Shown: in pieces, positions 6,131 through 20,600 of the stretch
Layout of the letters: each line of letters starts with the position of its first letter
Position numbering within the stretch: the stretch's first letter is position 1
NCBI RefSeq assembly: GCF_900106805.1
Contig: NZ_FNNP01000001.1
Coordinates: forward strand, 372,001-436,000
Direction: 5' to 3'
DNA: 64,000 bases
Origin: Ruegeria halocynthiae
GTDB taxonomy: Bacteria > Pseudomonadota > Alphaproteobacteria > Rhodobacterales > Rhodobacteraceae
Made by a program: the position numbers and the translations under genes
Notes under the pieces: generated by a model
Told to the model about the DNA's origin: nothing
Databases searched by the model: none
What the model saw: only the letters and a program-made list of their open reading frames with translations

Positions 6131-6508
6131 ATGCCGCTCGTTTCACTAAAAAATACCATTACGTTTGCGATTTCAGTTCGGGATCGCCATGCAAGCGCGG
6201 ATTGGTACAGCGCCAAGTTGGGGTTTGAGCTGACCCATCACATAGACGAGGCGGGTTGGAGCGAGATGCGCACCAATGTGGAAGGCGTGACACTGGGTCT
6301 GGGTGAACAGGCTGAGCCTGTACCGGGCAATTGCGTTCCGGTGTTTGAGGTCGCCGATATCGCCTCGGCGCGCGGCGCTTTGGAGGCCGACGGGGTGGCA
6401 TTCGACGGTGCCACTGAAACGGTCGAAGGGATGGTCAGCACGGCCACTTTCTATGATCCGGATAGAAATGCGCTGATGCTGGCGCAAGACCTGACGGGTG
6501 GTAACTAA
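6131..6508 (+). CDS. VOC-family (glyoxalase/bleomycin-resistance-like) protein
   Basis: A 125-residue vicinal-oxygen-chelate protein. The ATG at 6131 follows GAAAGGGAAG; in-frame codons upstream overlap the divergent regulator and are unlikely to be used. The paired beta-alpha-beta-beta-beta modules are visible: ITFAISVRDRHASADWYSAKLGFELTH, then GNCVPVFEVADIASARGALEADGVAF and FYDPDRNALMLAQ. These proteins bind a metal and act on small electrophiles, or bind antibiotics. The substrate is unknown. The divergent HxlR-type regulator suggests induction by the substrate, a common arrangement for detoxification genes. Confidence 0.8.
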   Translation: MPLVSLKNTITFAISVRDRHASADWYSAKLGFELTHHIDEAGWSEMRTNVEGVTLGLGEQAEPVPGNCVPVFEVADIASARGALEADGVAFDGATETVEGMVSTATFYDPDRNALMLAQDLTGGN

Positions 6509-6550: not shown

Positions 6551-6570
6551 TGTTGCGTAGGTGTTGCGTA
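6551..6570 (+). repeat. Tandem 9-bp direct repeat upstream of the GTA promoter
   Basis: TGTTGCGTA occurs twice (6551-6559 and 6562-6570) with an 11-bp period, ending 5 nt before the predicted -35 box. One helical turn of spacing adjacent to -35 is the geometry of an activator binding site. Confidence 0.6.
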
Positions 6571-6575
6571 ACACA

Positions 6576-6604
6576 TTGACTTTGCGAACTTAATCACGTA
6601 TAAC
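6576..6604 (+). promoter_or_regulatory. Predicted promoter of the GTA operon
   Basis: TTGACT (6576-6581) and TATAAC (6599-6604) are separated by exactly 17 bp, close to the sigma-70 consensus. Transcription should start at about 6611-6612. A CtrA-like half site TTAACCAC lies further upstream at 6529-6536. Confidence 0.65.
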
Positions 6605-6629
6605 TTGTGTCATGCTAGAAGAAGTGGGC

Positions 6630-6661
6630 AACGGCCCCGGGGCGACCCGGTGGCCGTTTTT
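6630..6661 (+). terminator. Terminator-like hairpin in the GTA leader
   Basis: AACGGCC (6630-6636) pairs with GGCCGTT (6652-6658), enclosing a second stem CCGGG/CCCGG with loop GCGA, and five T residues follow from 6657. It sits about 20 nt after the predicted transcription start and before g1, so it could attenuate GTA expression or end a short RNA. Confidence 0.6.
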
Positions 6662-6707
6662 CGTTTCTCTCGTGCGGAAAAACTCACGCATGAGGTCACA
6701 GGCAAAC

Positions 6708-7040
6708 ATGACTTTGATTACCCCGGAAGAGCGGATTTCCCAGACGGCTGACTTGTTGGTGTCGCTTGAGAGGTCCATTCGCGATCTGCGCAATGCAGCG
6801 GAAGAACTGCGAAAACAGATCGGTGCCGGGGAGGATGCAGACCTTGCCGGAACAGGCAAGCAACTTGGACAGCTAGAGGGGCTGATCCGAAGTTGCCAGA
6901 AAGTGGAGACAAGCTTTGTCGAACAACATCACAGACAAGCCGGAATTGCCCAAGGGGGTTATGCGCTCGACCTTGATCGGGCACGATCTGAGATCGGGTG
7001 CAGGCTGGCTCGCCTCCGCGCCTGCTGCGGTGCAGGATAG
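6708..7040 (+). CDS. g1: GTA protein g1, small terminase subunit-like
   Basis: A 110-residue GTA g1 homologue, the DNA-recognition partner of the large terminase. A heptad-like helical stretch (SQTADLLVSLERSIRDLRNAAEELRKQI) is followed by the conserved C-terminal LDLDRARSEIGCRLARLRACCGAG. I chose ATG 6708 by similarity to the usual length. The same frame is open back to an ATG at 6612, which coincides with the predicted transcription start, giving a possible 142-residue form; ATG 6690 is also possible. The 3' end overlaps g2 by 125 nt. Confidence 0.8.
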   Translation: MTLITPEERISQTADLLVSLERSIRDLRNAAEELRKQIGAGEDADLAGTGKQLGQLEGLIRSCQKVETSFVEQHHRQAGIAQGGYALDLDRARSEIGCRLARLRACCGAG

Positions 7041-8331
7041 ATTTCTGAGTGAGATCGGGGAGGGGGGGCTGTGTGCCCTCCCTTTCCTGTTCGAGTTCTG
7101 GGCTCTGCCGCATCAACTGCCGCCCGAGGGGGACTGGCGGTCATGGGTGATCATGGGCGGGCGCGGGGCTGGTAAGACGCGCGCCGGGGCCGAATGGGTG
7201 CGGTCTGTGGTAGAAGGGTCTTTGCCGCTGGATAAGGGTGAGGCGTGTCGCGTGGCTTTGGTCGGTGAGACATTCGATCAAGTGCGCGATGTGATGATCT
7301 TTGGCGATAGCGGGATTTTGCAGTGTTCACCGCCGGATCGTCGGCCTGTGTGGAAAGCATCAGAACGGAAACTGGTCTGGCCCAACGGGGCCGAGGCGCA
7401 GGCGTTTTCGGCGCATGATCCCGAGGGGTTACGCGGGCCGCAGTTCGATGCGGCCTGGGTGGATGAACTGGCCAAATGGAAGAAGGCGGGCGAGACCTGG
7501 GATATGTTGCAATTTGCTTTGCGATTGGGGGATCGGCCTCGGGTCTGTGTGACCACGACGCCGCGCAATGTGAAGGTTTTGAAGGATTTGCTGGCGTCGC
7601 CGTCCACCGTGCAGACCCATGCGCCGACCGAAGCGAACCGGGCAAATCTGGCGGGCTCCTTCTTGGAAGAGGTGCGCACACGCTATGCAGGCACGCGGCT
7701 GGGGCGGCAGGAGCTGGACGGAGTGCTGCTGTCGGATGCCGAGGGGGCGTTGTGGACAGGTTCGATGCTGGAGGCGGCGCGCTGTGCGCAGGTGCCCGCG
7801 TTGGATCGCATCGTCGTGGCGCTGGACCCGGCGGTGACGGCGGGGGCGGATGCGGATGCCTGCGGGATCGTGGTCGTGGGCGCGCGGTTGCAGGGGCCGC
7901 CTGAGGAGTGGCGCGCCTATGTGCTGGCCGACCGGACGGTGCAAGGCGTTGGCCCGGCGGGCTGGGCGCAGGCGGCGATTGACGCGATGGATGAGTTTGG
8001 GGCCGAGCGGTTGGTTGCCGAGGTCAATCAGGGTGGGCAACTGGTGGAAGAGGTCGTGCGGCAGGTGGACCCTTTGGTGCCTTATCGGGCGGTGCGGGCC
8101 TCACGCGGAAAGGTGGCGCGGGCCGAGCCTGTGGCGGCGTTGTACGAGCAGGGGCGGGTGGCGCATCTGGCCGGGCTGGGCGCGCTGGAAGAACAGATGT
8201 GCCAGATGACCGCGCGGGGGTTCGAGGGGCAGGGCTCGCCCGACCGGGTCGACGCGCTGGTCTGGGCGCTGCATGAGTTGGTTGTGGGGCCAGCGGGGGC
8301 GTATCGGCGGCCTCGGGTGCGGAGTTTGTGA
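6916..8331 (+). CDS. g2: GTA large terminase (TerL)
   Basis: A 471-residue DNA-packaging motor and nuclease that fills GTA heads. Walker A is GGRGAGKT (81-88), Walker B is FDAAWVDE with D183-E184, and the RNase H-like nuclease core begins at ALDPAV (D304), with a second acidic strand near LVAEVNQGG. The TTG at 6916 has a GGAG ribosome site 7 nt upstream; the ATG at 6961 (MRSTLIGHD) is the alternative but its G-rich run is too close. The gene overlaps g1 deeply, which implies coupled synthesis of the two terminase subunits. In GTAs this enzyme packages without recognising its own gene cluster. Confidence 0.95.
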   Translation: MSNNITDKPELPKGVMRSTLIGHDLRSGAGWLASAPAAVQDRFLSEIGEGGLCALPFLFEFWALPHQLPPEGDWRSWVIMGGRGAGKTRAGAEWVRSVVEGSLPLDKGEACRVALVGETFDQVRDVMIFGDSGILQCSPPDRRPVWKASERKLVWPNGAEAQAFSAHDPEGLRGPQFDAAWVDELAKWKKAGETWDMLQFALRLGDRPRVCVTTTPRNVKVLKDLLASPSTVQTHAPTEANRANLAGSFLEEVRTRYAGTRLGRQELDGVLLSDAEGALWTGSMLEAARCAQVPALDRIVVALDPAVTAGADADACGIVVVGARLQGPPEEWRAYVLADRTVQGVGPAGWAQAAIDAMDEFGAERLVAEVNQGGQLVEEVVRQVDPLVPYRAVRASRGKVARAEPVAALYEQGRVAHLAGLGALEEQMCQMTARGFEGQGSPDRVDALVWALHELVVGPAGAYRRPRVRSL

Positions 8332-8391: not shown

Positions 8392-8949
8392 CTATCCGAT
8401 AAAGGCGCAGTACTGCGTTTGATAATGTTGAAGTAATACCAGAAGGCGATGAGGTTGCTCAACGTCCTGCAATTCTTGCATCCCAAACAAGTAGAGCTTC
8501 ACAGGAGAAAACTCCATGGAACCGTAAAGATCTCCGGTTCCATATGGAGTAGGAGTGTACGGTTTGATAAACCTAAACACTATCTCTCCCCACTGAACAC
8601 CCTCCGTGAAACTGACTATACCCCAATCCGCGCTGTCCGGATCACTGGGATCTGGTAGTACAGTTTTTGTGAGATCAAAAGTGATGCCATGAGTTCGTAT
8701 GCCTTGTGTCGTCGTTTCTTCATTCTCGGCAGTCAGATTGCAGCCGTCTAATTTGATATATTGCCGGAAACGAATTTCGGGGAACCAAACGCGATTGCCA
8801 ATTTTGTTTCCTCCTTGAACCTGTCGTGTTTCGGAAAATTTTTTGATCTTTTGAGCAAGCGATGATTGCACGTCTTCGGCAAGCGCCATGTTGCAATTCA
8901 AGGCCAACAGAGAAATTAGGAGTGAGGCCATTCTGACGTGATTAATCAT
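8392..8949 (-). CDS. Hypothetical exported protein inside the GTA cluster
   Basis: A 185-residue protein of unknown function, transcribed against the GTA genes. The N-terminus is a Sec signal peptide (MINHVRMASLLISLLALNCNMALA, likely cut before ED). The mature part has KFSETRQVQGGNKIGNRVWFPEIRFRQYIKLDGCNLTAENEE and a pattern of short beta strands; two Cys (in GCNL and YCAF) could pair. I chose the ATG at 8949; a TTG one codon earlier and an ATG at 8931 are alternatives. A TATAAG box lies at 8964-8969 on the minus strand. Codon use is less GC-biased than in the GTA genes, suggesting acquisition. Confidence 0.6.
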   Translation of the reverse strand: MINHVRMASLLISLLALNCNMALAEDVQSSLAQKIKKFSETRQVQGGNKIGNRVWFPEIRFRQYIKLDGCNLTAENEETTTQGIRTHGITFDLTKTVLPDPSDPDSADWGIVSFTEGVQWGEIVFRFIKPYTPTPYGTGDLYGSMEFSPVKLYLFGMQELQDVEQPHRLLVLLQHYQTQYCAFIG

Positions 8950-9069
8950 CAAAGACTCAGATCCTTATAAACGTTTGCAAAAGCGCGGAACTTTCGAATA
9001 TGGCCCTCAATTGACATCAGCGCGCCAAGTTGTAAAGGGTTTGGAGTGTGCAATCTGAGGGTGCTGGAA

Positions 9070-9409: not shown

Positions 9410-10573
9410 ATGGTATTCGATTTCTTGCGTCGTGGATCGGCTGAGGCAGCACCCGAGGCAAAGGCGAGCGCGGCGGGGCCTGTGGTGGCGTGGCAGACGG
9501 GCGGGCGCGTGGCGTGGAGCCCCAGGGATGCGGTGTCGCTGACGCGGACGGGGTTTTCGGGAAACCCGGTGGGGTTCCGCTCGGTCAAGTTGATTGCTGA
9601 GGCGGCGGCGGCACTGCCTTTGGTGCTGCAGGATCAGGCGCAGCGCTTTGATGTGCATCCGATCCTGAGCCTCATGCGCCGTCCGAATGCGGCGCAGGGG
9701 CGGGCGGAGTTGATGGAGGCGCTGTTCGGGCAGCTGCTGCTGTCGGGCAATGCCTATGTTGAGGCTGTACAGGCTGAAGAAGGCTTGCCGGTTGAGCTGC
9801 ACGTTTTGCGCTCGGACCGGATGAGCGTGGTGCCAGGGGCGGATGGGTGGCCCAAAGCGTATGACTACGCGGTCGGCGGCAAGAAGCACCGGTTTGCGGC
9901 GGAAAACATCTGTCATATCAAATCGTTCCACCCGCAGGATGATCATTATGGGTTCTCGCCGATGCAGGCGGCGGCGATGGCGATTGATGTGCATAACAGC
10001 GCGTCTCGGTGGTCGAAATCGTTGCTGGACAATGCGGCGCGGCCTTCGGGGGCGCTTGTCTGGAAGGGCGGTAATGGCCATGGGGTGATGGCCGAGGATC
10101 AATTCCGGCGCCTTTCGGACGAGATTGAGCAGAACTATCGCGGGGCGCGCAATGCTGGTCGTCCGATGGTTCTGGAAGGAGGGCTGGATTGGAAGCCGAT
10201 GGGTTTCTCGCCCTCTGACATGGAGTTTCAAAAGACCAAGGAAGCCGCCGCCCGCGAGATCGCGCTGGCCTTTGGGGTCCCGCCGATGCTGCTGGGGATA
10301 CAAGGCGACGCGACCTATTCGAACTATCAGGAGGCCAACCGGGCGTTCTATCGCCTGACCGTGCTGCCCCTGGTGACGCGGGTGGCGGCGGCGGTGTCGG
10401 ATTGGCTGGCGGGGTTCTCGGGTGAGGATCTGGTGTTGAAACCCGATCTGGATCAGGTGCCTGCGCTGTCAGCGGAGCGGGACGCGCAATGGGCACGGGT
10501 CAATGGGGCTGATTTCCTGAGCGATGCCGAGAAGCGTGCATTGCTGGGGCTGCCGGAGCGTGCCGATGGGTGA
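9410..10573 (+). CDS. g3: GTA portal protein, HK97 family
   Basis: A 387-residue portal protein that forms the dodecameric DNA channel at the head vertex. Conserved portal features include GFRSVKLIAEAAAALPLVL near the N-terminus, ALFGQLLLSGNAYVE, IKSFHPQDDHYGFSPMQAAA and ALAFGVPPMLLGIQGDATYSNYQEANRAFYRLTVLPL. The ATG at 9410 is preceded by AAAGGAG. It is the first gene after the insert, so its expression may depend on read-through across about 1 kb or on a secondary promoter. It overlaps g3.5 by 8 nt. Confidence 0.95.
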   Translation: MVFDFLRRGSAEAAPEAKASAAGPVVAWQTGGRVAWSPRDAVSLTRTGFSGNPVGFRSVKLIAEAAAALPLVLQDQAQRFDVHPILSLMRRPNAAQGRAELMEALFGQLLLSGNAYVEAVQAEEGLPVELHVLRSDRMSVVPGADGWPKAYDYAVGGKKHRFAAENICHIKSFHPQDDHYGFSPMQAAAMAIDVHNSASRWSKSLLDNAARPSGALVWKGGNGHGVMAEDQFRRLSDEIEQNYRGARNAGRPMVLEGGLDWKPMGFSPSDMEFQKTKEAAAREIALAFGVPPMLLGIQGDATYSNYQEANRAFYRLTVLPLVTRVAAAVSDWLAGFSGEDLVLKPDLDQVPALSAERDAQWARVNGADFLSDAEKRALLGLPERADG

Positions 10574-10784
10574 CGGGTATCCTCCGTTCGAGTGTGCGCC
10601 CGGCCTGCGTCTGGCCGCGCATGAACGGGTGGCCGAGATTCAGCATGCGCATTTGTGCAGGCGGTTGGATCAAATCGAAGAGATGATGGAGCGGCTGGAA
10701 AAGCGGTTATGGCTGACGGTCTACGGCGTTGTGGCGGTGATCCTGGCGCAGGCGTTTCAGTCTCTGCTGGTGGTAACGCCATGA
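10566..10784 (+). CDS. g3.5: GTA protein g3.5, small membrane protein
   Basis: A 72-residue protein with an amphipathic coiled-coil stretch (HERVAEIQHAHLCRRLDQIEEMMERLEKRL) and one C-terminal membrane helix (LTVYGVVAVILAQAFQSLLVV). The ATG at 10566 overlaps the end of g3, and its own TGA overlaps the g4 ATG (ATGA). Position, length and topology match g3.5 of the Rhodobacter GTA; its role is not established. Confidence 0.75.
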   Translation: MGDGYPPFECAPGLRLAAHERVAEIQHAHLCRRLDQIEEMMERLEKRLWLTVYGVVAVILAQAFQSLLVVTP

Positions 10785-11356
10785 GTTCAGTGAGTTACAT
10801 GGAGAAGTTCATGGATTTAGAACATAAGTTTGCGCGGTTTGGCGATGGCCTTTCCGTGTCCGAGGATGCGGTGATCGAAGGCTATGCCAGCCTGTTTGGG
10901 CAGGTCGATCAGGGCAGCGATGTGGTGCAACGCGGGGCGTATCAAAGCTCGCTTGACGGGCTCGCCAAGGCGGGTCAGCGGGTCAAGATGCTGTGGCAGC
11001 ATGATCCGGCGCAGCCCATCGGCGTCTGGGACGAGGTGCGTGAGGACGACAAGGGCCTGTGGGTCAAGGGGCGTCTGCTGGAGAGCACGCAGAAGGGTCG
11101 TGAGGCGGCCGAGCTGATCCGGGCGGGTGCGATGGATGGCCTGTCGATCGGCTATCGCACCAAACGGGCCGTGAAGAACGATAAGGGCCAGCGGGTCCTG
11201 ACCGAACTGGAGCTGTGGGAGGTGTCGTTGGTGACCTTCCCGATGCTGCCCAGTGCGCGGGTGGCGGCGAAGGGGAGCGACCCCGAGGCCGAGAACACCT
11301 GGCGCAGTATTGCCGAGGTGTTCAACGATGCCCGGCAGGAGCTGGCGCGAACCTAG
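10781..11356 (+). CDS. g4: GTA prohead protease
   Basis: A 191-residue HK97-family prohead serine protease that trims capsid proteins during maturation. Family motifs: VIEGYASLFGQVDQGSDVVQRGAY, the His segment KMLWQHDPAQPIG, and the Ser segment AGAMDGLSIGYRT, ending with LWEVSLVTFPMLPSA. The ATG at 10781 forms an ATGA overlap with g3.5 and has GGTGG upstream; the in-frame ATGs at 10799 and 10811 are alternatives. The next gene, as expected, is the capsid substrate. Confidence 0.92.
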   Translation: MSSVSYMEKFMDLEHKFARFGDGLSVSEDAVIEGYASLFGQVDQGSDVVQRGAYQSSLDGLAKAGQRVKMLWQHDPAQPIGVWDEVREDDKGLWVKGRLLESTQKGREAAELIRAGAMDGLSIGYRTKRAVKNDKGQRVLTELELWEVSLVTFPMLPSARVAAKGSDPEAENTWRSIAEVFNDARQELART

Positions 11357-11392
11357 CGCGCCTCAAACCCCACCGAAAAACAGGACATGCTG

Positions 11393-12571
11393 ATGAGCAA
11401 GACCGAGAGCCCGGCCTTGACCGGAGAGGGTGCGCCCCTGGTTCAGGAGGTGAAGCAGGCGATGGCTGGCTTCGTTAATGAATTCAAGGGCCTGAAGGCT
11501 AAAGTTAAAACCAATATGAAACAGACAGAAGAGCGACTGACTATGCTGGATCGTAAATCAACCATCGCGGCACGTCCGCATCTTGCGGCATCTATCGAAG
11601 ACGGCGCGCCGCACCAGAAGGCCTTTGACGCATATGTGCGTTGCGGTGATGATGACGCGCTGCGTGGCCTAGAGGTGGAAACCAAATCGCTTTCCAGCGC
11701 GGTCAACAGCGATGGCGGCTATCTGGTCGATCCGCAAACCGCCGAGATGGTCAAGTCAGTTCTGAATTCGACGGCTTCGATCCGTTCGATTGCGTCGGTG
11801 GTGAATGTCGAGGCGAACTCGTTCGACGTGTTAATCGACCACACTGATGTTGGCGCGGGTTGGGCGGATGAAAATTCGGCCACGGCGGAGACCGCAACCC
11901 CGTCGATTGATCGTATCTCAATCCCGCTGCACGAGTTGAGCGCGCTGCCGAAAGCCTCGCAACGTCTGCTGGATGACAGTGCGTTTGACGTCGAGGGCTG
12001 GCTGGCCGGTCGTATTGCCGACAAGTTCGCCCGCGCCGAGGCGGCCGCGTTCATCAATGGGGATGGCGTGGACAAACCAAAGGGTATCATGAACCACCGT
12101 GCGATGGAAAATGACAGCTGGGGGTGGGACAGCCTGGGCTATATCGCAACCGGCATTGACGGTGGCGTCGAAGCTGACGCGATTGTCGACGTGGTCTATG
12201 CGCTGGGGGCGCAGTACCGGGTGAACGGCACCTTCGTGATGAACTCGAAAACCGCCGGTCTGATCCGCAAGCTGAAGGACAGCGATGGCCGCTTCCTGTG
12301 GTCGGATGGTCTGGCCGCGGGTGAGCCTGCGCGTCTGATGGGATATCCGGTGCTGATTGCCGAGGACATGCCGGATGCGGCGACTGACAGCTTCTCAATC
12401 GCGTTTGGTGATTTCCAGTCGGGCTACACCATTGCCGAGCGTCCCGATCTGCGCGTATTGCGCGATCCGTTCAGCGCCAAGCCGCACGTCCTGTTCTACG
12501 CGACCAAGCGCGTGGGCGGCGATGTGAGCGATTTTGCTGCAATCAAACTGCTGAAATTCGGCACTGCCTAA
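11393..12571 (+). CDS. g5: GTA major capsid protein, HK97 fold
   Basis: A 392-residue HK97-type capsid protein that forms the small GTA head. The N-terminal delta region (about 1-100) contains coiled-coil-like LKAKVKTNMKQTEERLTMLDRK and would be removed by g4. The mature core begins around SLSSAVNSDGGYLVDPQT, with SIPLHELSALPKASQRLLDDSAFDVEGWLAGRIADKFARAEAAAFINGDG and the C-terminal VLFYATKRVGGDVSDFAAIKLLKF. The ATG at 11393 has AGGA 7 nt upstream, while the ATG at 11387 is only 1 nt from it. A 170-nt gap follows before g6. Confidence 0.95.
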   Translation: MSKTESPALTGEGAPLVQEVKQAMAGFVNEFKGLKAKVKTNMKQTEERLTMLDRKSTIAARPHLAASIEDGAPHQKAFDAYVRCGDDDALRGLEVETKSLSSAVNSDGGYLVDPQTAEMVKSVLNSTASIRSIASVVNVEANSFDVLIDHTDVGAGWADENSATAETATPSIDRISIPLHELSALPKASQRLLDDSAFDVEGWLAGRIADKFARAEAAAFINGDGVDKPKGIMNHRAMENDSWGWDSLGYIATGIDGGVEADAIVDVVYALGAQYRVNGTFVMNSKTAGLIRKLKDSDGRFLWSDGLAAGEPARLMGYPVLIAEDMPDAATDSFSIAFGDFQSGYTIAERPDLRVLRDPFSAKPHVLFYATKRVGGDVSDFAAIKLLKFGTA

Positions 12572-12741
12572 GCGGTGACGAATCCGGGGGGCCATTGGCC
12601 CTTCTGACGGCGGGCGCGGGCCGGGGTGAGATCCCCTGCGTTGTCTAGCTGCTCCCCTCCGTCCGAGCAACGTGGGGCGGCGCGTGCCCGTCATTTTCCT
12701 GAAGTTGGCCCCGGAAGGGTCCGAGATTGCGGAGAGTATGG

Positions 12742-13341
12742 ATGATGTTGATCGAAGAAACCGCCATCGCGGATGCGGCGCTGCCGGTGGATCAGTTCAA
12801 GGCGCATTTGCGGCTGGGCACGGGGTTTGCCCAAGGCAATGTGCAGGACGAGGTGCTAAATAGCTTTTTGCGCGCGGCCATCGCAGCGATCGAGGCGCGC
12901 ACAGGCAAGGTGTTGATCGAGCGGGATTTCTCGTGGGACCTGAATGGCTGGCGTGATCCGGCTGGTGAAGTACTGCCCGTGTCTCCGGTGGTTGCGGCTG
13001 CCTCGGTCACACTGACCGATGCGTTGGGGACCGAAACCGTTTTGGATGCCGCGACCTATCGATTGGAGCGTGACACGCAACGGCCTCGGTTGCGTCCGGC
13101 GGGGGCCTGCTTGCCAATGGTGCAGAAAGGCGGATCGGTGAAGATCGTCTTCACGGCCGGAATGGCTGTGGATTGGGGCGGCTTGCCTGCTGATCTTGGG
13201 CAGGCGGTGCTGCTGTTGGCGGCGCATTACTATGAATATCGCGATGAGACGGCGCTGGGTGCGGGGTGCATGCCCTTTGGCGTGACCAGCCTGATCCAGC
13301 GCTATCGCACGGTGCGCTTCGGCGCAGGGGTGATGCAATGA
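12742..13341 (+). CDS. g6: GTA head-tail connector protein g6
   Basis: A 199-residue phage connector (gp6-like/phiE125 gp8-like) protein that binds under the portal. The pattern PVDQFKAHLRLGTGFAQGNVQDEVLNSFLRAAIAAIEARTGKVLIERDFSWDL is the family's helical N-terminus, followed by beta strands and QAVLLLAAHYYEYRDE. The ATG at 12742, with GGAGAG upstream, is followed immediately by a second ATG. The stop overlaps g7 by 4 nt (ATGA). Confidence 0.88.
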   Translation: MMLIEETAIADAALPVDQFKAHLRLGTGFAQGNVQDEVLNSFLRAAIAAIEARTGKVLIERDFSWDLNGWRDPAGEVLPVSPVVAAASVTLTDALGTETVLDAATYRLERDTQRPRLRPAGACLPMVQKGGSVKIVFTAGMAVDWGGLPADLGQAVLLLAAHYYEYRDETALGAGCMPFGVTSLIQRYRTVRFGAGVMQ

Positions 13342-13676
13342 GCGCGCCGCGATTGAACCGCAAGCTGGTGCTGGAGGCTCCGGTCCGCAGCGCCGATGGC
13401 GCGGGGGGTTATACCGAGACCTGGGCCGCGCTGGGAACGCTTTGGGCCGAAGTCACGGCGCGCAGCGGGTCGGAACGCGCAGTGGGCGGTGCCTCGGTCT
13501 CGCGTGTCGGTTATCGCATCGTGGTGCGGGGTGCACCCGAGGGATCTTCGATGCGACCCGCGCCGGATCAGCGGTTCCGCGAGGGCGCGCGTCGGTTTGT
13601 AATTCGCGCCGTGGCTGAACGCGACCCGCGTGGCCAGTACCTGACCTGTTTTGCGGATGAAGAGGTGGCGGCATGA
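13338..13676 (+). CDS. g7: GTA head-tail adaptor (stopper) protein g7
   Basis: A 112-residue small beta protein of the phage head-tail joining family (SPP1 gp16-like). RKLVLEAPVRSADGAGGYTETWAALGTLWAEVTARSGSERAVGG matches the characteristic N-terminal beta strands, and the second half is RPAPDQRFREGARRFVIRAV. It is coupled to g6 and g8 by 4-nt overlaps at both ends. Confidence 0.87.
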   Translation: MSAPRLNRKLVLEAPVRSADGAGGYTETWAALGTLWAEVTARSGSERAVGGASVSRVGYRIVVRGAPEGSSMRPAPDQRFREGARRFVIRAVAERDPRGQYLTCFADEEVAA

Positions 13677-14086
13677 GCTATGGCGTTTCAGCCGCATTGC
13701 AGGCGGCGGTGTTCCAACAGCTTTCCGGCGACGCGCAGGTCAGCACGCTTTCAGGCGGTGCGATCTATGACGCGGTGCCTGCGGGGACGGTACCGCAGAC
13801 CTATGTGACGCTGGGCCCGGAGGAGGTGCGTGATGCCTCTGACCGGTCCGGCGCGGGGGCGGTGCATCGGTTCACGGTCTCCATCGTCTCAGAAGCGGCG
13901 GGTTTTGGTGCGGCCAAGACACTGGCCGGGGCGGTGTGTGACGCACTGGAAGGGGCGGCGCTGTCCTTGGACCGGGGTCATCTGGTGGGGCTGTGGTTCG
14001 AACGTGCACGCGCCAGACGCACCGGAACCGGCGGTGCGATCCGCCAGATCGATCTGAAGTTCCGCGCCCGCGTGGAAGACGACTAA
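13673..14086 (+). CDS. g8: GTA tail terminator-like protein g8 (DUF3168)
   Basis: A 137-residue DUF3168 protein, the tail-completion component joining head and tail. Typical features are SAALQAAVFQQLSGDAQVSTL, IYDAVPAGTVPQTYVTLGPEEV, the central TVSIVSEAAGFGAAKTLAGAVCDAL and the final IRQIDLKFRARVED. It overlaps g7 by 4 nt and is followed after 20 nt by the major tail protein. Confidence 0.88.
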   Translation: MSYGVSAALQAAVFQQLSGDAQVSTLSGGAIYDAVPAGTVPQTYVTLGPEEVRDASDRSGAGAVHRFTVSIVSEAAGFGAAKTLAGAVCDALEGAALSLDRGHLVGLWFERARARRTGTGGAIRQIDLKFRARVEDD

Positions 14087-14106
14087 GCAATCAACGGAGA
14101 GAGCAT

Positions 14107-14520
14107 ATGGCTGCCCAGAACGGAAAAGACCTGTTGGTCAAAGTGGATATGAACGGCACCGGTCTGTTCGAGACCATCGCGGGCCTGCGCGCCACGCGGA
14201 TCAGTTTCAATGCGGAAAGCGTGGATGTGACCAGCCTGGAAAGTCAGGGCGGGTGGCGTGAACTGCTGTCGGGGGCGGGGGTGAAATCCGCCGCGATCTC
14301 GGGCTCGGGCGTGTTCAAGGATGCGGGCACGGATGAGCGTGCGCGTCAGCTGTTCTTTGACGGTGAGACGCCCGGATTTCAGGTGATCATCCCGGAATTC
14401 GGCATCGTTGAAGGCCCATTTCAGGTGAGCAGCATCGAATATGCGGGCTCGCATAACGGTGAGGCGACCTATGAGATGAGCATGGCAAGCGCCGGTGCGC
14501 TGAGCTTTACAGCGCTCTGA
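14107..14520 (+). CDS. g9: GTA major tail protein (tube)
   Basis: A 137-residue tail tube protein of the phage major tail protein family (TP901-1-like). It shows MAAQNGKDLLVKVDMNGTG, ATRISFNAESVDVTSLES, ISGSGVFKD and SSIEYAGSHNGEATYEMSMASAGALSFTA, the alternating strands of the tube fold. The ATG at 14107 is preceded by GGAGAGAGC. The stop overlaps g10 by one base. Confidence 0.92.
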   Translation: MAAQNGKDLLVKVDMNGTGLFETIAGLRATRISFNAESVDVTSLESQGGWRELLSGAGVKSAAISGSGVFKDAGTDERARQLFFDGETPGFQVIIPEFGIVEGPFQVSSIEYAGSHNGEATYEMSMASAGALSFTAL

Positions 14521-14837
14521 TGGCCAATCCGTGGACGGGCGAGGTGGCATTGACCATCGATGGGGAGCGGCGGGTGCTCAAGCTGACTTTTGGTGCTTTG
14601 GCGGAATTGGAGCAGGAATTGCAGGCCGGGTCTCTGGTGGAGTTGGTGCAGCGGTTTGAGGGCGGGGCCTATTCCAGCGGTGATGTGCTGGCGCTGATCG
14701 TGGCTGGTCTGCGAGGCGGTGGAGCTGACGTCACGCGCGCCGACCTGCTGCGTGCGGAAATCGAAGGCGGGCCGATGGCCGGGGCCAAGGCCGCCGCAGA
14801 GTTGCTGGCGCGCGCCTTCATGGTGCCGGGGCAGTGA
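14520..14837 (+). CDS. g10: GTA family protein g10, tail assembly chaperone-like
   Basis: A 105-residue gene-transfer-agent family protein (GTA-gp10 type). It starts MANPWTGEVALTIDGERRVLKLTFGALAELEQEL and has GDVLALIVAGLRGGGADVTRADLL, resembling tail assembly chaperones that bind the tape measure protein. It is coupled to g9 (1-nt overlap) and to g10.1 (4-nt overlap). Confidence 0.85.
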   Translation: MANPWTGEVALTIDGERRVLKLTFGALAELEQELQAGSLVELVQRFEGGAYSSGDVLALIVAGLRGGGADVTRADLLRAEIEGGPMAGAKAAAELLARAFMVPGQ

Positions 14838-15043
14838 GCGGGTTCGACTGGCCCGTCCTGATGCGGGCCGGGTTCCTCGGCTTGCGTCTGACGCCCGAGC
14901 AGTTCTGGCGTCTTACCCCCGCCGAGCTGCGACTGATGCTGGGGCAGGGCGCTGGGATGCCAGCGATGAACCGGGCGGGGCTGGATGCGCTGCAGGCGGC
15001 CTATCCGGACAAGGAACAAGGAGAGCGTGATGACGGATCGTGA
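14834..15043 (+). CDS. g10.1: GTA protein g10.1, phage tail assembly chaperone
   Basis: A 69-residue protein starting at a GTG (14834) inside the end of g10. FDWPVLMRAGFLGLRLTPEQFWRLTPAELRLML is the signature of the short tail-assembly-chaperone family next to GTA tape measures. Phage equivalents are often made by frameshift; here it is a separate overlapping gene. It also overlaps g11 by 14 nt. Confidence 0.82.
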   Translation: MSGFDWPVLMRAGFLGLRLTPEQFWRLTPAELRLMLGQGAGMPAMNRAGLDALQAAYPDKEQGERDDGS

Positions 15044-15692
15044 AGGATTTGACGACCTGCAGGAGCGGGGGGAGGCGCTGGGTGATGCGCTGGGGGACGC
15101 CGCGACCATGGCCTCGGCGTTTGATGGTCAGATGCGGCGGATCAAGGCTGCGTTTGAAGAGACCGGAAAGGATGTGGCCACGCTGGAGCGCGGCATGTCC
15201 GGCGGTCTGCGCAAGGCGTTTGATGGCGTGGTGCTGGATGGGATGAACCTGTCGGGGGCGCTGGACGTGCTGAAGAGTTCGATGATCCGTACGGCTTATA
15301 CTGCGGCGATCAAGCCGGTGACGGATCATTTCGGCGGGATGCTGGCAAATGGGGTTGGCGGTCTGGTGCAGGGGATTCTGCCGTTTGCGGATGGCGGCAG
15401 TTTTTCGCAAGGGCGCGTGATGCCGTTTGCCAATGGCGGCGTGGTCAGCAGCCCGACCATGTTCCCGATGCGAGGCGGCACCGGGTTGATGGGTGAGGCG
15501 GGTCCCGAGGCGATCATGCCGCTGGCGCGTGGCGCGGATGGCAAGCTGGGTGTTCGAACGCAGGGCGGTGGCCGGGCGGTCAACGTGGTGATGAATATCT
15601 CGACGCCCGATGTGCAGGGGTTCCGCCGCTCGCAGGGCCAGATCGCGGCGCAGATGAGCCGAGCCTTGGGTCGCGGCAATCGGAACAGATAA
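15030..15692 (+). CDS. g11: GTA tape measure protein (short)
   Basis: A 220-residue tape measure protein, very short for a siphovirus-like tail and consistent with the short GTA tail. The N-terminus is helical (DDLQERGEALGDALGDAATMASAFDGQMRRIKAAFEETG), followed by a hydrophobic Gly-rich section (FGGMLANGVGGLVQGILPFADGG) and the family's GTGLMGEAGPEAIMPLARGADGKLGV. The ATG at 15030 follows AGGAGAG and overlaps g10.1. Confidence 0.9.
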   Translation: MTDREGFDDLQERGEALGDALGDAATMASAFDGQMRRIKAAFEETGKDVATLERGMSGGLRKAFDGVVLDGMNLSGALDVLKSSMIRTAYTAAIKPVTDHFGGMLANGVGGLVQGILPFADGGSFSQGRVMPFANGGVVSSPTMFPMRGGTGLMGEAGPEAIMPLARGADGKLGVRTQGGGRAVNVVMNISTPDVQGFRRSQGQIAAQMSRALGRGNRNR

Positions 15693-15704
15693 GGGGAGCA
15701 GGTG

Positions 15705-16337
15705 ATGAATTTCCACGAGGTGAGATTTCCCGCCAGCCTGAGCTTTGGCTCGGTCGGGGGACCGGAACGGCGCACGGATATCGTGACGCTGGCCAACGGG
15801 TTTGAAGAACGCAACACGCCTTGGGCGCATTCGCGCAGGCGCTATGACGCGGGGCTGGGGATGCGGTCTTTGGATGATGTTGAAACGCTGATCTCGTTCT
15901 TCGAGGCGCGGCAGGGCCAGATGTTTGGGTTCCGCTGGAAAGACTGGTCGGATTTTAAATCCGGTGCGGCCTCGGTCGAGGTGGACAAGGGCGATCAGGT
16001 GATTGCGCGCGGGGATGGCGAAACGACCTCGTTTCAGTTGGTCAAGACCTATAGCTCGGGTGGTTTCAGCTATGTCAGACCTATTCTGAAACCAGTATTG
16101 GGGACCGTAAAGCTGGGTTTGGATCAGGACGCGCAGCGCGAGGGCGTGGACTTTGAGGTCGATCTTGTGACCGGGCGCGTGACCCTTACCACACCACCGC
16201 CCGAGCAGGTCGAGATCACCGCCGGGTTTGAGTTTGACGTGCCGGTACGGTTCGACACCGACAAGATCCAGACGAGTGTCGCCAGTTTTCAGGCCGGAGA
16301 TGTCCCGAACGTGCCGGTGGTCGAGGTGCGGGTCTGA
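15705..16337 (+). CDS. g12: GTA distal tail protein (DUF2460)
   Basis: A 210-residue DUF2460 protein, the distal tail ring joining tube and baseplate hub. FHEVRFPASLSFGSVGGPERRTDIVTLANGFEERNTPWAHSRRRYDAG and SFFEARQGQMFGFRWKDWSDFKS are diagnostic. The ATG at 15705 has GGGGAG 7 nt upstream; a GTG one codon earlier is also possible. The stop overlaps g13 by one base. Confidence 0.92.
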   Translation: MNFHEVRFPASLSFGSVGGPERRTDIVTLANGFEERNTPWAHSRRRYDAGLGMRSLDDVETLISFFEARQGQMFGFRWKDWSDFKSGAASVEVDKGDQVIARGDGETTSFQLVKTYSSGGFSYVRPILKPVLGTVKLGLDQDAQREGVDFEVDLVTGRVTLTTPPPEQVEITAGFEFDVPVRFDTDKIQTSVASFQAGDVPNVPVVEVRV

Positions 16338-17221
16338 TGAACGGAGCCAGACAAGCGCTGCAGGCGCATTTGCAGAGTGGATTGACCACGACATGCCGCT
16401 GCTGGGCGATCACACGCAGCGACGGACAGACCTTTGGTTTCACCGATCACGATATGGAGTTGAGTTTTGACGGGCTGGCGTTCAAGGCCAGCACCGGACT
16501 GACAGCAGCAGCAATCGAACAGGCAACCGGCCTGTCGATCGACAACACCGAGGCAATGGGTGCGTTGTCTGATGCCTCGGTCCGGGAAGAAGACATAGAG
16601 GCCGGCCGCTTTGACGGCGCAGAGGTGCGGGCCTGGTTGGTCAACTGGGCTGATGCTGCGCAGCGGATGCTGCAGTTTCGCGGCTCGATCGGAGAACTGC
16701 GTCGCGCAGGTGGGGCATTTCACGCGGAATTGCGTGGGCTGACCGACTTGCTGAACCGGCCATTGGGGCGGATTTATCAGAAGCCCTGTACGGCTGTGCT
16801 GGGGGATGGTGCGTGCCGTTTTGCCTTGGATACGCCTGGCTATCGTGCCGAGGCTGAAATTGATGCGCTGGACGGGGAGGTCCTGCGTTTGCGAGGTGCT
16901 GAGAGCTCTGACGGGGGGTGGTTCGAGCGGGACAGGTTGGATGTGCTGGACGGTGCCGCACAAGGCCTTTGGGCTTCGATCAAGCTGGATGAACAGGTCA
17001 AAGATGGGCGCAATGTCACGCTGTGGTCGTCGATTGGCGGCGGGCTGGCAGTAGGAGATCGAGTCCAACTGACCGCGGGTTGCGACAAACGCATGACCAC
17101 CTGTCGGTTGAAATTCAATAACATGCTGAATTTTCAAGGTTTCCCCGATCTGCCGCACGAGGACTGGGTTATGGCTGTTCCCAAGCGCAGCAGCCAACAC
17201 AAAGGGGGGAGCAGGCGGTGA
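16337..17221 (+). CDS. g13: GTA baseplate hub protein (DUF2163)
   Basis: A 294-residue DUF2163 hub protein. Published structural work on the R. capsulatus particle describes an iron-sulfur cluster in the hub; candidate ligands here are C151, C160, C249 and C256, in KPCTAVLGDGACRF and AGCDKRMTTCRLKF, with C20 and C22 additional. Other conserved parts are GFTDHDMELSFDG and the C-terminal FNNMLNFQGFPDLP. It overlaps g12 and g14 by one base each. Confidence 0.92.
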   Translation: MNGARQALQAHLQSGLTTTCRCWAITRSDGQTFGFTDHDMELSFDGLAFKASTGLTAAAIEQATGLSIDNTEAMGALSDASVREEDIEAGRFDGAEVRAWLVNWADAAQRMLQFRGSIGELRRAGGAFHAELRGLTDLLNRPLGRIYQKPCTAVLGDGACRFALDTPGYRAEAEIDALDGEVLRLRGAESSDGGWFERDRLDVLDGAAQGLWASIKLDEQVKDGRNVTLWSSIGGGLAVGDRVQLTAGCDKRMTTCRLKFNNMLNFQGFPDLPHEDWVMAVPKRSSQHKGGSRR

Positions 17222-17661
17222 TGCGGACAAAGCAAGATATCGTAAAAGAAGCGCGGGCATGGCTGGGTACGCCCTACGTGCATCAGGCGTCGGTGTGTGG
17301 TGCAGGTGCCGATTGCCTTGGCCTGCTGCGGGGCGTTTGGCGCAGCGTGATGGGGCATGAGCCCGAAGCGGTGCCGGTCTACAGCATGGACTGGTCAGAA
17401 CCACAGGGCGAGGAACGCATGTGGGCTGCTGCCCGCCGTCATCTGATTGAGAAATCACCCGAGAAGATGGCCAAGGGGGACGTGCTGTTGTTCCGGATGC
17501 GGGATGCGGCAGTTGCCAAACATCTGGGCATCGTCAGTGCCCGGGACCCAATGCGGTTCATCCACGCCTATACCGGGCATGGCGTTGTCGAAAACACGCT
17601 GAGCGAACCGTGGCGTCGCCGCGTTGTTGCCTGTTTCGAATTCCCGCTGGAGGACCTCTGA
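17221..17661 (+). CDS. g14: GTA NlpC/P60-family tail peptidase
   Basis: A 146-residue cell-wall peptidase thought to cut peptidoglycan cross-bridges during DNA entry. The catalytic Cys is C32 in GADCLGLLRGVW, and the His is H101 in AKHLGIV with H114 in FIHAYTGHGV as third residue. The ATG at 17221 overlaps the g13 stop; a GTG one codon upstream is an alternative. It overlaps g15 by one base. Confidence 0.92.
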   Translation: MRTKQDIVKEARAWLGTPYVHQASVCGAGADCLGLLRGVWRSVMGHEPEAVPVYSMDWSEPQGEERMWAAARRHLIEKSPEKMAKGDVLLFRMRDAAVAKHLGIVSARDPMRFIHAYTGHGVVENTLSEPWRRRVVACFEFPLEDL

Positions 17662-20600
17662 TGGCTACTATACTTCTGTCTGCCGCCGGTGCGGCAATTG
17701 GTGGCTCGATCGGCGGTTCGGTCGCAGGTCTGTCGACAGCGGTGATTGGACGCGCGGTAGGGGCGACGCTAGGGCGCGTGATCGACAACCGCTTGATGGC
17801 GAGCCAATCAGTGATGGGTGGCGGCAGCGAAGTGGTCGAGACCGGACGTTTGGATCGCTTTCGCCTGACTGAAACCGGCGAAGGAGCACCGGTTTCGACG
17901 GTGTTTGGCCGAATGCGGGTTGGAGGTCAGGTCATCTGGGCCTCGGATTTTCTGGAAACCCGATCTACCTCGACTTCGACGCAAACCTCGGGCGGAGGTG
18001 GAAGCGGCAAGGGGAAGCCAAAACCTGTTGAGGTCACGACGACAACAACAACGCACAGCTACAGCTATTCGGTGTCTCTGGCGATTGCTGTCGGCGCGGG
18101 CGCGGTTGCTGACATCACGCGCATCTGGGCGGATGGCGAGGAGGTTGAGCGCAGAACCTTGAACATGCGGATATATCGTGGCGATCACGAGCAACTACCT
18201 GATCCTTTGATCGAAGCGGTTGAGGGCGCAGGTACGGTTCCTGCCTATCGTGGCACTGCCTATGTGGTAATCGAAGATCTTGCGCTGGCCCCGTATGGTA
18301 ATCGCGTACCTCAATTCTCGTTCGAAGTGGTGCGACAGGAGCAGGACGCCATGCCGGATGCCGATGATGCGCTGTCGCGGATCATCAAGGGCGTAGCGCT
18401 GATGCCGGGGACGGGCGAGTACGCGCTGGCCTCAACTCAGGTGAATTACACCAAAGGTCGAGGTCGCAGCTGGGCGGCGAATGTTAATTCACCTTCGGGA
18501 AGGTCCGATCTTGTGACCTCGACCCGGGCGCTTGATAAAGAATTGCCGGGTTGCGAGGCGGCCTCGTTGATCGTGTCGTGGTTTGGTGATGATCTGCGCT
18601 GCGCCGAGTGCCAGATCCGCCCAAAGGTCGAGCGCAAAAATATCGAGGGCAAGAACATGCCCTGGAGTGTTTCGGGCTTGTCCCGTGCGGCGGCAGGGCA
18701 GGTGAAATGGGAGGATGGGCGCCCGGTCTATGGCGGCACCCCGGCTGACGCGGCAGTGGTGCAGGCGATCCGGCATCTGACGAGTTCTGGCAAGCGTGTC
18801 ATGTTCTATCCGTTCATCCTGATGGAGCAATCAGAAGGTAACGGCCTGCCTGATCCTTGGTCTGGTGCAAGCGATCAACCGCATCTGCCGTGGCGGGGGC
18901 GGATTACGCTGAGTGTGGCTCCGGGGCGGTCGGGGTCACCGGATCAGAGCGCGGATGCGGATGCACAGGTGGCGGCGTTCTTTGGAACTGCGCGCGCATC
19001 GCATTTTTCTGTTGGCAGCGGAACGGTGTCTTATAGCGGCCCCAATGAATGGGGATTGAGGCGCTTTATTTTGCATTACGCGGCCTTGTGCAAAGCGGCG
19101 GGCGGTGTGGATTCGTTCTGTATCGGGTCGGAAATGCGCGGTCTGACGCAAATCCGCGGGGCATCGGGTTTCGTGGCGGTTGCGGAATTGCGGTCTCTGG
19201 CTGCCGAAGTGCGTGCGATTTTAGGACCAGAGATCAAGATCGGATACGCCGCCGACTGGACCGAATATTTCGGGTATCAGCCGCAGGATGGCAGCGGTGA
19301 TCGGTACTTCCATCTCGACCCGCTTTGGGCGGATGAGAATATCGATTTCATCGGCATCGATAATTACATGCCGCTGTCGGATTGGCGTGACGGGGAAGCT
19401 CATCTTGATATCGAAACCTCGAACGGTTCGATCTATGATCTGGACTATCTGCGCGGCAATATCGAAGGCGGCGAGGGTTATGACTGGTACTATGCCTCAC
19501 CCGAGGAAGCCGAGGCGCAGATCAGAAGTCCGATCACCGATTATGCCCATGATGAACCATGGGTGTGGCGCTACAAGGATGTGCGCAACTGGTGGACAAA
19601 CCGACATCACGAGAGGATCGGAGGGGTGCGGCAGCAAACGCCCACGGACTGGGTGCCGGGGGCCAAGCCGATCTGGTTCACCGAACTGGGCTGTGCGGCC
19701 ATCGACAAGGGTACGAACCAGCCGAACAAGTTTCTGGATCCGAAATCGTCAGAATCAGATTTACCCAGCTATTCCAACGGTGTGCGGGACGATTTTATCA
19801 TGATTCAATACCTCAGAGCAGTTCTGGGGTATTGGGGTGATCCGCAGATCAACCCAGTGTCGGATATCTATGATGGTCCGATGGTTGACCTGTCGAACGC
19901 CTTTGTCTGGGCGTGGGACGCACGTCCGTTCCCGACATTTCCCAATCTGCGTTCGCAATGGTCTGACGGAGATAACTATGCGCGCGGGCATTGGTTGAAC
20001 GGACGGTCCGGGTCGCGGACCCTGGCCTCGGTTGTGACAGAGATCTGCCATGAGGCAGGCGTGACAGCGATTGATGTCTCCGAGCTCTATGGTGTGGTGC
20101 GGGGTTATGCGGTCGAGGACGTGATGAATGCGCGACAGGCGTTGCAACCGCTGATGCTGCGCTATGGGTTTGATGCAATCGAACGGGATGGGGTGTTGGT
20201 GTTCAGAACCCGCGATGGGCGTCAAGCGCATGATCTGGATCCTGAACAGATTGCGATCAGTTCGGATATCGACGGGACGGTGGAACACCGTCGCGAGGCT
20301 GAGGCAGAGATGACCGGACGTGTCCGATTACGATTTGTCCAGTCGGATGCGGACCATGATGTGGTCGCTGAAGAAGTCGTCTTGCCAGACGACAGAACCC
20401 ACGCGGTTGCGGTTAATGAAATGCCGTTGTCGATGACCCGCGCCGAAGGGCGTCAGACGGTCGAGCGCTGGCTGAGCGAATCCCGGATCTCGCGCGAGAC
20501 GGCCCGGTTTGCGCTGCCACCGTCGCTGTTGAATGTCGGGGCAGGAGACGTGGTGCGTCTGCCCGATGCCGGGAACGGAACGCTGTATCGGATCGACCGG

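Follow-up and report, generated by a model that had tools for sequence, protein, structure and literature searches.

A conserved terminator-like hairpin in the leader of the Ruegeria gene transfer agent cluster and its predicted bypass by GafA

The gene transfer agent locus

The window considered here, a stretch of 64,000 nucleotides, comes from the 4.24 Mb genome of Ruegeria halocynthiae and carries a gene transfer agent (GTA) cluster preceded by a predicted promoter and a structured leader. Table 1 presents an overview of the features concerned. The cluster begins with g1 at 6708, ends at about 21641 and is by its gene content of the RcGTA type, with HK97-type genes and with a GafA-like gene located elsewhere in the genome. 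Its structural part encodes a portal, a prohead protease, a capsid protein, connectors, tail proteins, an NlpC peptidase and a large last protein, and the genes scanned in the GTA cluster matched the NCBIfam models TIGR01537, TIGR01543, TIGR01554, TIGR02215, TIGR01563, TIGR02126 and TIGR02219. Gene names and gene order follow those of the RcGTA cluster.

The first gene of the main cluster, g1, gave no match in NCBIfam or Pfam. Its start is most likely at 6708, since a conserved ATGAC(A/T)TT segment is found there after a leader of variable length. Close relatives of the large terminase, g2, occur in 53 of 54 genomes of the genus, some of them truncated, and the phage relatives found in the g2 search are all distant, with less than 60% identity.

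In about ten genus genomes the terminase match stops at residue 186, mostly within frames of 845-848 amino acids. An intein was considered for the 845-aa frames and ruled out, as both frames that were read are g2-g15 fusions: in loci L251 (472-2985) and L252 the truncated terminase frame runs on as the C-terminal part of g15 (ELGCAA...), and on this reading both are deletions that fuse g2 to g15. Among 15 loci that were truncated or partial, 14 still had a leader recognised by pattern search, the exception being L265; in L259 the stem of the leader is damaged, and in L262 the T-run is shortened. Between g2 and g3 of the window, an ORF of 186 amino acids lies on the minus strand (8392-8952). 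By eye its start resembles a signal peptide, Pfam gave no match for it, and any transcript running through the operon would need to pass over it.

Table 1. Positions in the window of the promoter, leader and GTA cluster features
Feature	Position	Strand	Remarks
Direct repeat GTTGCG...GTTGCG upstream of the -35	6552-6568	+	Copies at 6552-6557 and 6563-6568
Predicted -35 element of the main-cluster promoter, TTGACT	6576-6581	+	By eye, then comparison
Conserved spacer element, predicted GafA-C loading site	6585-6593	+	CGAACTTAA here; family consensus CGnACGGTC
-10 element TATAAC (predicted)	6599-6604	+	17 nt from the -35; by eye, then comparison
Conserved initial transcribed segment ATGCTAGAAGAAGTGGGC from the predicted +1	6612-6629	+	Genus and family comparison
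Lower stem, AGAAGUGGG (6620-6628) with 6660-6668	6620-6668	+	Encloses hairpin and T-run
Terminator hairpin core, 10 pairs	6632-6656	+	Sequence, fold, conservation
U-tract	6657-6661	+	Predicted release at about 6660-6661, giving a leader RNA of about 50 nt
Second leader hairpin, CUCGUGC (6669-6675) with GCAUGAG (6688-6694)	6669-6694	+	Adjoins the first
GTA g1, first gene of the main cluster	6708-7040	+	110 aa; ORF listing; start most likely 6708
GTA g2, large terminase	6916-8331	+	TIGR01630 match weak, below cut-off
Rest of the GTA structural cluster	9410-21641	+	NCBIfam matches for genes scanned, ORFs

Promoter and leader hairpin

The predicted promoter of the main cluster is near consensus, with transcription expected to start at about 6611-6612. 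Across 84 family loci the T, T, G, A and C of the -35 are kept in 84, 84, 83, 83 and 82 cases, counts that are partly circular, as these 84 were selected out of 86 by their match to the -35, which also contributed to the anchor score. The first four positions of the -10 hold T in 78, A in 83, T in 52 and A in 68 of the 84 loci; here too the conservation is partly circular, the anchor score having been built from the -35, TATA and +1 motifs. The spacer was not used in the score. It contains an element with C in 72, G in 74, C in 77, G in 71 and T in 68 of the 84 loci, a conservation about equal to that of the -10. In the stretch from -60 to -7 relative to the -35, 3 of 54 columns are above 0.35 bits. 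The Ruegeria window matches the family consensus of this element at CGnAC only. By analogy with the QBE, ABE and ZBE, which stand at the same place, the element is predicted to be the loading site of the regulator, through the C-terminal part of GafA (GafA-C).

Two further sequences flank this core. Upstream of the -35, GTTGCG occupies -24 in 21 and -13 in 28 of the 30 genus loci, and -13 in only 6 of the 84 family loci; the repeat may be a lineage-specific candidate site for the GafY-like N-terminal domain of GafA. Downstream, ATGCTAG is present in all 30 genus loci, and the family consensus of the initial segment is partly circular because the +1 motif is part of the anchor score. The segment GCTRGAAGAAG after the start is conserved and matches a -10-like sequence poorly. 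No clear pause element resembling a -10 was seen past the start in the 84 family loci, the best candidate, TAGAAG, having A as its second letter in 41 and G in 40 of them.

The hairpin itself reads CGGCCCCGGG-GCGA-CCCGG-T-GGCCG and is followed directly by TTTTT. Its two tiers of five pairs are arranged around a single bulged T (6651) beneath a GCGA loop, and in the fold two A-U pairs (6631-6657 and 6630-6658) lengthen it into the T-run. The stem begins at about +20 relative to the predicted start. A GC-rich stem-loop therefore stands immediately 5' of a T-run on the transcribed strand, which is the make-up of an intrinsic (Rho-independent) terminator, and the d'Aubenton-Carafa type score is +56.7. 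For the predicted 50-nt transcript (6612-6661) the folding energy is -25.5 kcal/mol (z -3.05), with 2 of 200 shuffles as good, while the region 6590-6700 folds at -46.8 kcal/mol (z -4.10), with none of 200 as good. A scan of the sequence for perfect stems did not include the hairpin, probably because of the bulged T. Sequence and fold thus bear out the preliminary description, which had reported a two-tier GC-rich hairpin with five T about 20 nt past the predicted start, and they lend support to its further suggestion that the terminator-like hairpin could gate the GTA and yield an RNA of about 50 nt.

Conservation in the genus and family

Leaders, taken as the sequence upstream of the large terminase, were compared in two sets. 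Of 54 genus genomes searched, 53 had a terminase match, and the genus set consists of the 30 that scored best, the window included. The family set consists of 89 loci, each from another genus, drawn from the 259 of 295 genomes with a terminase match and made up of the 29 top matches and 60 of the next 64 (G113, G264, G148 and G181 were left out). As loci were chosen by terminase match, the sample leans towards genomes with the best-kept terminase. A hairpin qualified at -12 kcal/mol or lower if a stretch with four or more T in six came after it and it lay 25-85 nt past the anchor.

By this measure, a qualifying hairpin stands at the same place of the leader in 30 of 30 genus and 79 of 89 family loci. 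Dinucleotide shuffles passed at about 5% (32 of 600 for the genus, 88 of 1780 for the family), windows at four shifted positions in 2, 0, 0 and 0 of 30 genus and 3, 5, 4 and 2 of 89 family loci, and the opposite strand in 1 of 30 and 6 of 89. The d'Aubenton-Carafa type score exceeds zero in 78 of the 89 family leaders versus 2 of 89 windows within the g1 coding sequence. One of the ten failing family loci, L077, is a near miss at -11.8 kcal/mol, and all ten of their genomes have a DUF6456 match, two as fragments only. In a collection of named loci that overlaps the first set, 75 of 80 pass, one of them (L164) doubtfully; the passing loci include Rhodovulum, Tateyamaria and three of four Sulfitobacter, and R. 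capsulatus was not identified among the loci compared. Within the Ruegeria genome, a covariance model of the leader gave a single match at E <= 1, this leader at 76.5 bits, in a search that scored 150 of 1746 candidates. Rfam gave no matches at gathering scores in the 64-kb window.

Covariation and further leader stems

Covariation of the stem in related GTA clusters, suggested as a check in the preliminary description, was found in two alignments. The first is anchored on the flanks and holds the 65 of 89 family loci with both anchors. In it, the upper stem has G-C, A-U, G-U or C-G as its first pair, with 18 double-changed cells, a value reached in 0 of 500 shuffles, and the six base pairs are paired on average in 75% of cases as against 37-57% when slid. 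The second keeps the stems in the same register and has 28 rows, namely 27 loci picked by 5'-arm pattern and anchors, which makes for a mild selection, together with the window, where the 5' arm is shifted out of register by one letter. Here 94.2% of cells are paired as against 89.0% in shuffles (0 of 500), slid registers give 50-60%, and there are 34 double changes versus 13.4 in shuffles. RNAalifold on a MAFFT alignment of 90 leaders returned 0 pairs, probably because differences in loop length shift the stems out of register. The pattern of substitution indicates that the hairpin structure is under selection.

The T-run is conserved as well. At the five columns of the U-tract, from 5' to 3', T is found in 56, 59, 59, 57 and 46 of the 65 loci. 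Two of these columns face a G, and there G-U outnumbers G-C by 46 to 4 and by 39 to 11. T is kept although C would pair better, which argues for the need of a terminator, as a plain stem would not require T.

Two more structures, neither of them in the preliminary description, accompany the hairpin. The lower stem is paired on average in 85% of cases versus 40-65% in slid registers (65 of 89 loci, flank-anchored). Among its seven pairs, a+9/b-6 shows clear covariation, with 11 double changes and none of 500 shuffles as good, a+10/b-7 shows good covariation (4 of 500), two are weak (16 and 27 of 500) and three are no better than shuffles. This stem extends past the release point, which termination alone leaves unexplained. 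In 72 of the 86 family loci both arms of the second hairpin can be recognised by five or more of their seven letters, and its pairs are kept at 85-97% with weak covariation; it overlaps a GAGG sequence upstream of g1. Together, the lower stem and the second hairpin point to an additional role of the RNA.

Such a role can be accommodated in more than one way. The leader may act first as a terminator and then, once read through, as an extended 5' hairpin that serves processing, stability or translation control of the g1 mRNA. The lower stem, which can pair only after read-through, and the overlap of the second hairpin with GAGG would fit such a dual element, but the weak covariation of the second hairpin does not favor it, and we regard this account as unlikely. 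Alternatively, the leader could be a cis-acting antitermination or stability RNA in which the long and second hairpins act on the polymerase or protect the 5' end and the T-run is incidental. The model for this is HK022 put, where two adjacent stem-loops at the start of the transcript act in cis without a protein. The lower stem, with its advantage over slid registers and one clearly covarying pair, and a second hairpin that directly adjoins the first with both arms in 72 of 86 loci, resemble this arrangement; however, the columns facing G mostly hold T rather than C, and a GC stem with a T-run behind it, confined to a single strand, is the layout of a terminator. A put-like RNA is therefore held to be distinctly unlikely. 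It is more improbable still that the leader chiefly releases a functional trans-acting RNA of about 50 nt with GTA silencing as a secondary effect. Release is predicted at +49/50 and the 5' segment is conserved, as such an RNA would have it, but the absence of Rfam matches in the window, the single genomic site of the leader model and the lack of any report of such an RNA in the literature searched all speak against it.

The leader reading frame

The preliminary description had placed the hairpin inside an extended g1 frame and had proposed that a ribosome moving from the AUG at 6612 opens it, so that GTA expression would be tied to translation. The first part holds for this genome, where 6612 and 6708 are in frame and 96 nt apart, but it does not extend to the genus. 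An ATG stands at the +1 place in all 30 genus loci, yet its distance to the ATG of g1 is a multiple of three in just 7 of them, with a remainder of 1 in 17 and of 2 in 6. In the family, 38 of 86 leaders have the ATG and 48 lack it, 30 of them with AAG instead, and the ORFs that begin at the +1 ATG range from 4 to at least 100 amino acids. The ORF from 6612 would also be leaderless, because the predicted transcript begins at that A. No leader frame conserved across the hairpin, as a translation-coupled attenuator would have, was found in the 30 genus and 86 family leaders, and the ribosome as opener of the gate has become very improbable. Annotators are advised to avoid the upstream ATG as the start of g1.

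That the hairpin instead terminates the glyoxalase-family gene upstream (6131-6508) and has nothing to do with the control of the GTA is hardly credible: the gene lies on the same strand with its stop codon about 120 nt away, but upstream homologues of it turned up at 11 of the 30 genus loci and at none of the 89 family loci, with the hairpin still kept, and the hairpin stands downstream of the conserved GTA promoter. For the opening of the predicted terminator, GafA acting on RNA polymerase is a better candidate than the ribosome.

GafA and the proposed antitermination

The Ruegeria genome encodes a GafA-like protein of 372 amino acids on the same contig, about 480 kb beyond the window. DUF6456 covers its residues 226-362, and near its N-terminus HTH_38 matches weakly, below the Pfam cut-off. 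Of the 295 family genomes, 269 have DUF6456, this one among them. Homologues of R. capsulatus GafA, whose constructs extend to residue 382, are annotated with DUF6456 (PMC9638019), and the C-terminal part of GafA is described as homologous to GafZ and the N-terminal part to GafY (PMC11150451). A regulator homologous to a known antiterminator is thus present in the Ruegeria genome.

Published work on R. capsulatus describes GafA as an activator that acts through the omega subunit of RNA polymerase; GafA-C binds a promoter fragment containing the -35, the -10 and the start, and the C-terminal part alone fails to induce RcGTA (PMC9638019). GafA is reported to be active also at the gafA and lysis promoters (PMC6363796). 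At those promoters of the Ruegeria genome the leader model found nothing, the GTA site being the only one. The mechanism of activation was called not known in 2022 (PMC9632790), and Tran & Le suggested in 2024 that GafA might possess an unrecognised antitermination activity (PMC11150451).

Hairpin and T-run together are best read as an intrinsic terminator that lies close to the promoter of the GTA main operon and is bypassed by processive antitermination through GafA, a reading to which we assign a probability of roughly two in three. RNA polymerase would start at about 6612, stop at about 6660 and free a leader RNA of about 50 nt, leaving the cluster silent. GafA, once made, would bind the GTA promoter, and its C-terminal DUF6456 domain would load onto the polymerase at the spacer element between -35 and -10. 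The GafA-loaded polymerase would then resist the terminator, pass the hairpin and transcribe the operon. Termination, read-through by GafA and the loading site are each something that we infer. Since the promoter is near consensus, a lock that acts after initiation is plausible. GafA may also help initiation, as published via omega, and the share of that help is here a matter of inference. A terminator downstream of the regulated promoter, which for Q and AlpA lies ahead of the first gene, belongs to an antitermination module of this type and is seen here at the level of sequence, with promoter and start predicted. Several observations sit less easily with this reading: the lack of a clear pause element of the kind Q requires, the ten family loci without a qualifying hairpin, the reach of the lower stem past the release point, the published action of GafA via omega and at the gafA and lysis promoters, the failure of its C-terminal part to induce RcGTA by itself, and the two non-family genomes (G480 and G580) that combine a leader-side terminator with no DUF6456 match.

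A broader proposition may tentatively be added, although the odds are somewhat against it. Rhodobacterales GTAs may have kept the full late-gene switch of their phage ancestor. The promoter would then fire in ordinary cells and transcription would stop at +50, so that silence is set after the start; the decisive act of GafA at this promoter would be antitermination and not initiation, and an RNA of about 50 nt would be present in GTA-off cells across the family.

Comparison with known systems

The closest parallel is the CcGTA of Caulobacter, which shares with Ruegeria a GTA cluster, a homologous regulator and, by prediction, a regulator-binding element in the -35/-10 spacer (PMC11150451). There, GafZ antiterminates at the GTA promoter and needs the element between -35 and -10; it associates with the polymerase and Nus factors, part of the polymerases pass terGTA and E. 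coli rrnB T1, and loss of GafZ costs about 4-fold even without terGTA (PMC11150451). Read-through of the terminator is predicted in Ruegeria. The two differ in that the Caulobacter terminator consists of three 150-bp repeats after the first gene, while in Ruegeria it would be a compact hairpin at about +20, before any gene, and in that the Caulobacter -35 is AATCAT as against a near-consensus promoter here (PMC11150451). GafZ is reported to have no sequence or structural similarity to known antiterminators (PMC11150451).

Q, AlpA and GafZ all bind in the -35/-10 spacer (PMC6606751, PMC7969949, PMC11150451). In Pseudomonas, AlpA is a host-encoded antiterminator with a binding element in the spacer that turns on lysis genes in a subset of cells, and the intrinsic terminators under its control begin 54 and 26 nt past the start (PMC7969949), compared with about 20 nt in the Ruegeria leader. 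AlpA governs lysis genes, whereas the Ruegeria hairpin precedes a GTA cluster. The lambdoid Q/PR'/tR' system has the same order of promoter, spacer site, leader terminator and late (particle) genes; however, Q requires a -10-like pause element past the start (PMC6606751), and no clear one is apparent in the Ruegeria leader. Turning to the RcGTA promoter of Rhodobacter capsulatus, the kind of cluster and the regulator are the same, but the published mechanism differs, being activation through the omega subunit (PMC6363796, PMC9638019). In the main texts of these two GafA papers the terms "terminat-" and "hairpin" have 0 occurrences.

GTA loci outside the family

At E <= 0.01 with strict filters, the covariance model matched 13 of 289 genomes of the class. 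Three belong to the family, namely the Ruegeria genome, G107 and G262; in each of them a hit falls immediately before the terminase match, with a further weak hit at another place in G262. The family genome G346 has a terminase and no model match. Of the ten matching genomes outside the family, two (G569 and G586) have a listed terminase, which is located elsewhere. The model thus found no leader element at the non-family GTA loci compared.

Terminators were also sought before the terminases of 27 non-family loci of the class. Strong ones (-18 kcal/mol or lower) occur in 5 loci; the opposite strand gave 1, and shuffles averaged 0.25. With the threshold at -14 kcal/mol the three numbers are 5, 2 and 1.35. 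Among the genomes with a leader-side terminator, G480 and G580 have no DUF6456 match and the match of G452 is below the cut-off. With two of five genomes lacking DUF6456 and one below the cut-off, the mechanism is not claimed for these loci.

The strong terminator-like hairpins before GTA-like terminases are those of L213, L214, L223, L224 and L231, from four other families of the class. In L213 and L214, whose genomes have no DUF6456 match, the hairpin follows a segment, GACACGCTGAGAG, that resembles the +1 region of Rhodobacterales. Another arrangement is seen at L253 (704-1531 and 1546-1700) of the distant alphaproteobacterium G471, where a DUF6456 (GafZ-like) gene lies directly upstream of a GTA-like promoter and terminase. 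The gene order of a Q-type switch is Q, PR', late genes, and that of L253 is like it. By eye, the L253 leader may form a long stem of TCGATAA..GGTCAG with CTGACCTTATCGA.

Significance

In the open-licence literature, no report was found of a terminator in the leader of a Rhodobacterales GTA. The kind of switch proposed here is known; its place, its compactness and its conservation across the family are, as far as seen, new. A conserved leader terminator offers a concrete second target for GafA beside its contact with omega, and it makes the one-line suggestion of Tran & Le that GafA might act in antitermination a testable one. Should the proposed bypass hold, the production of particles, which is lethal to the producing cell, would be controlled across a large bacterial family by the same logic as in lambda Q and AlpA.
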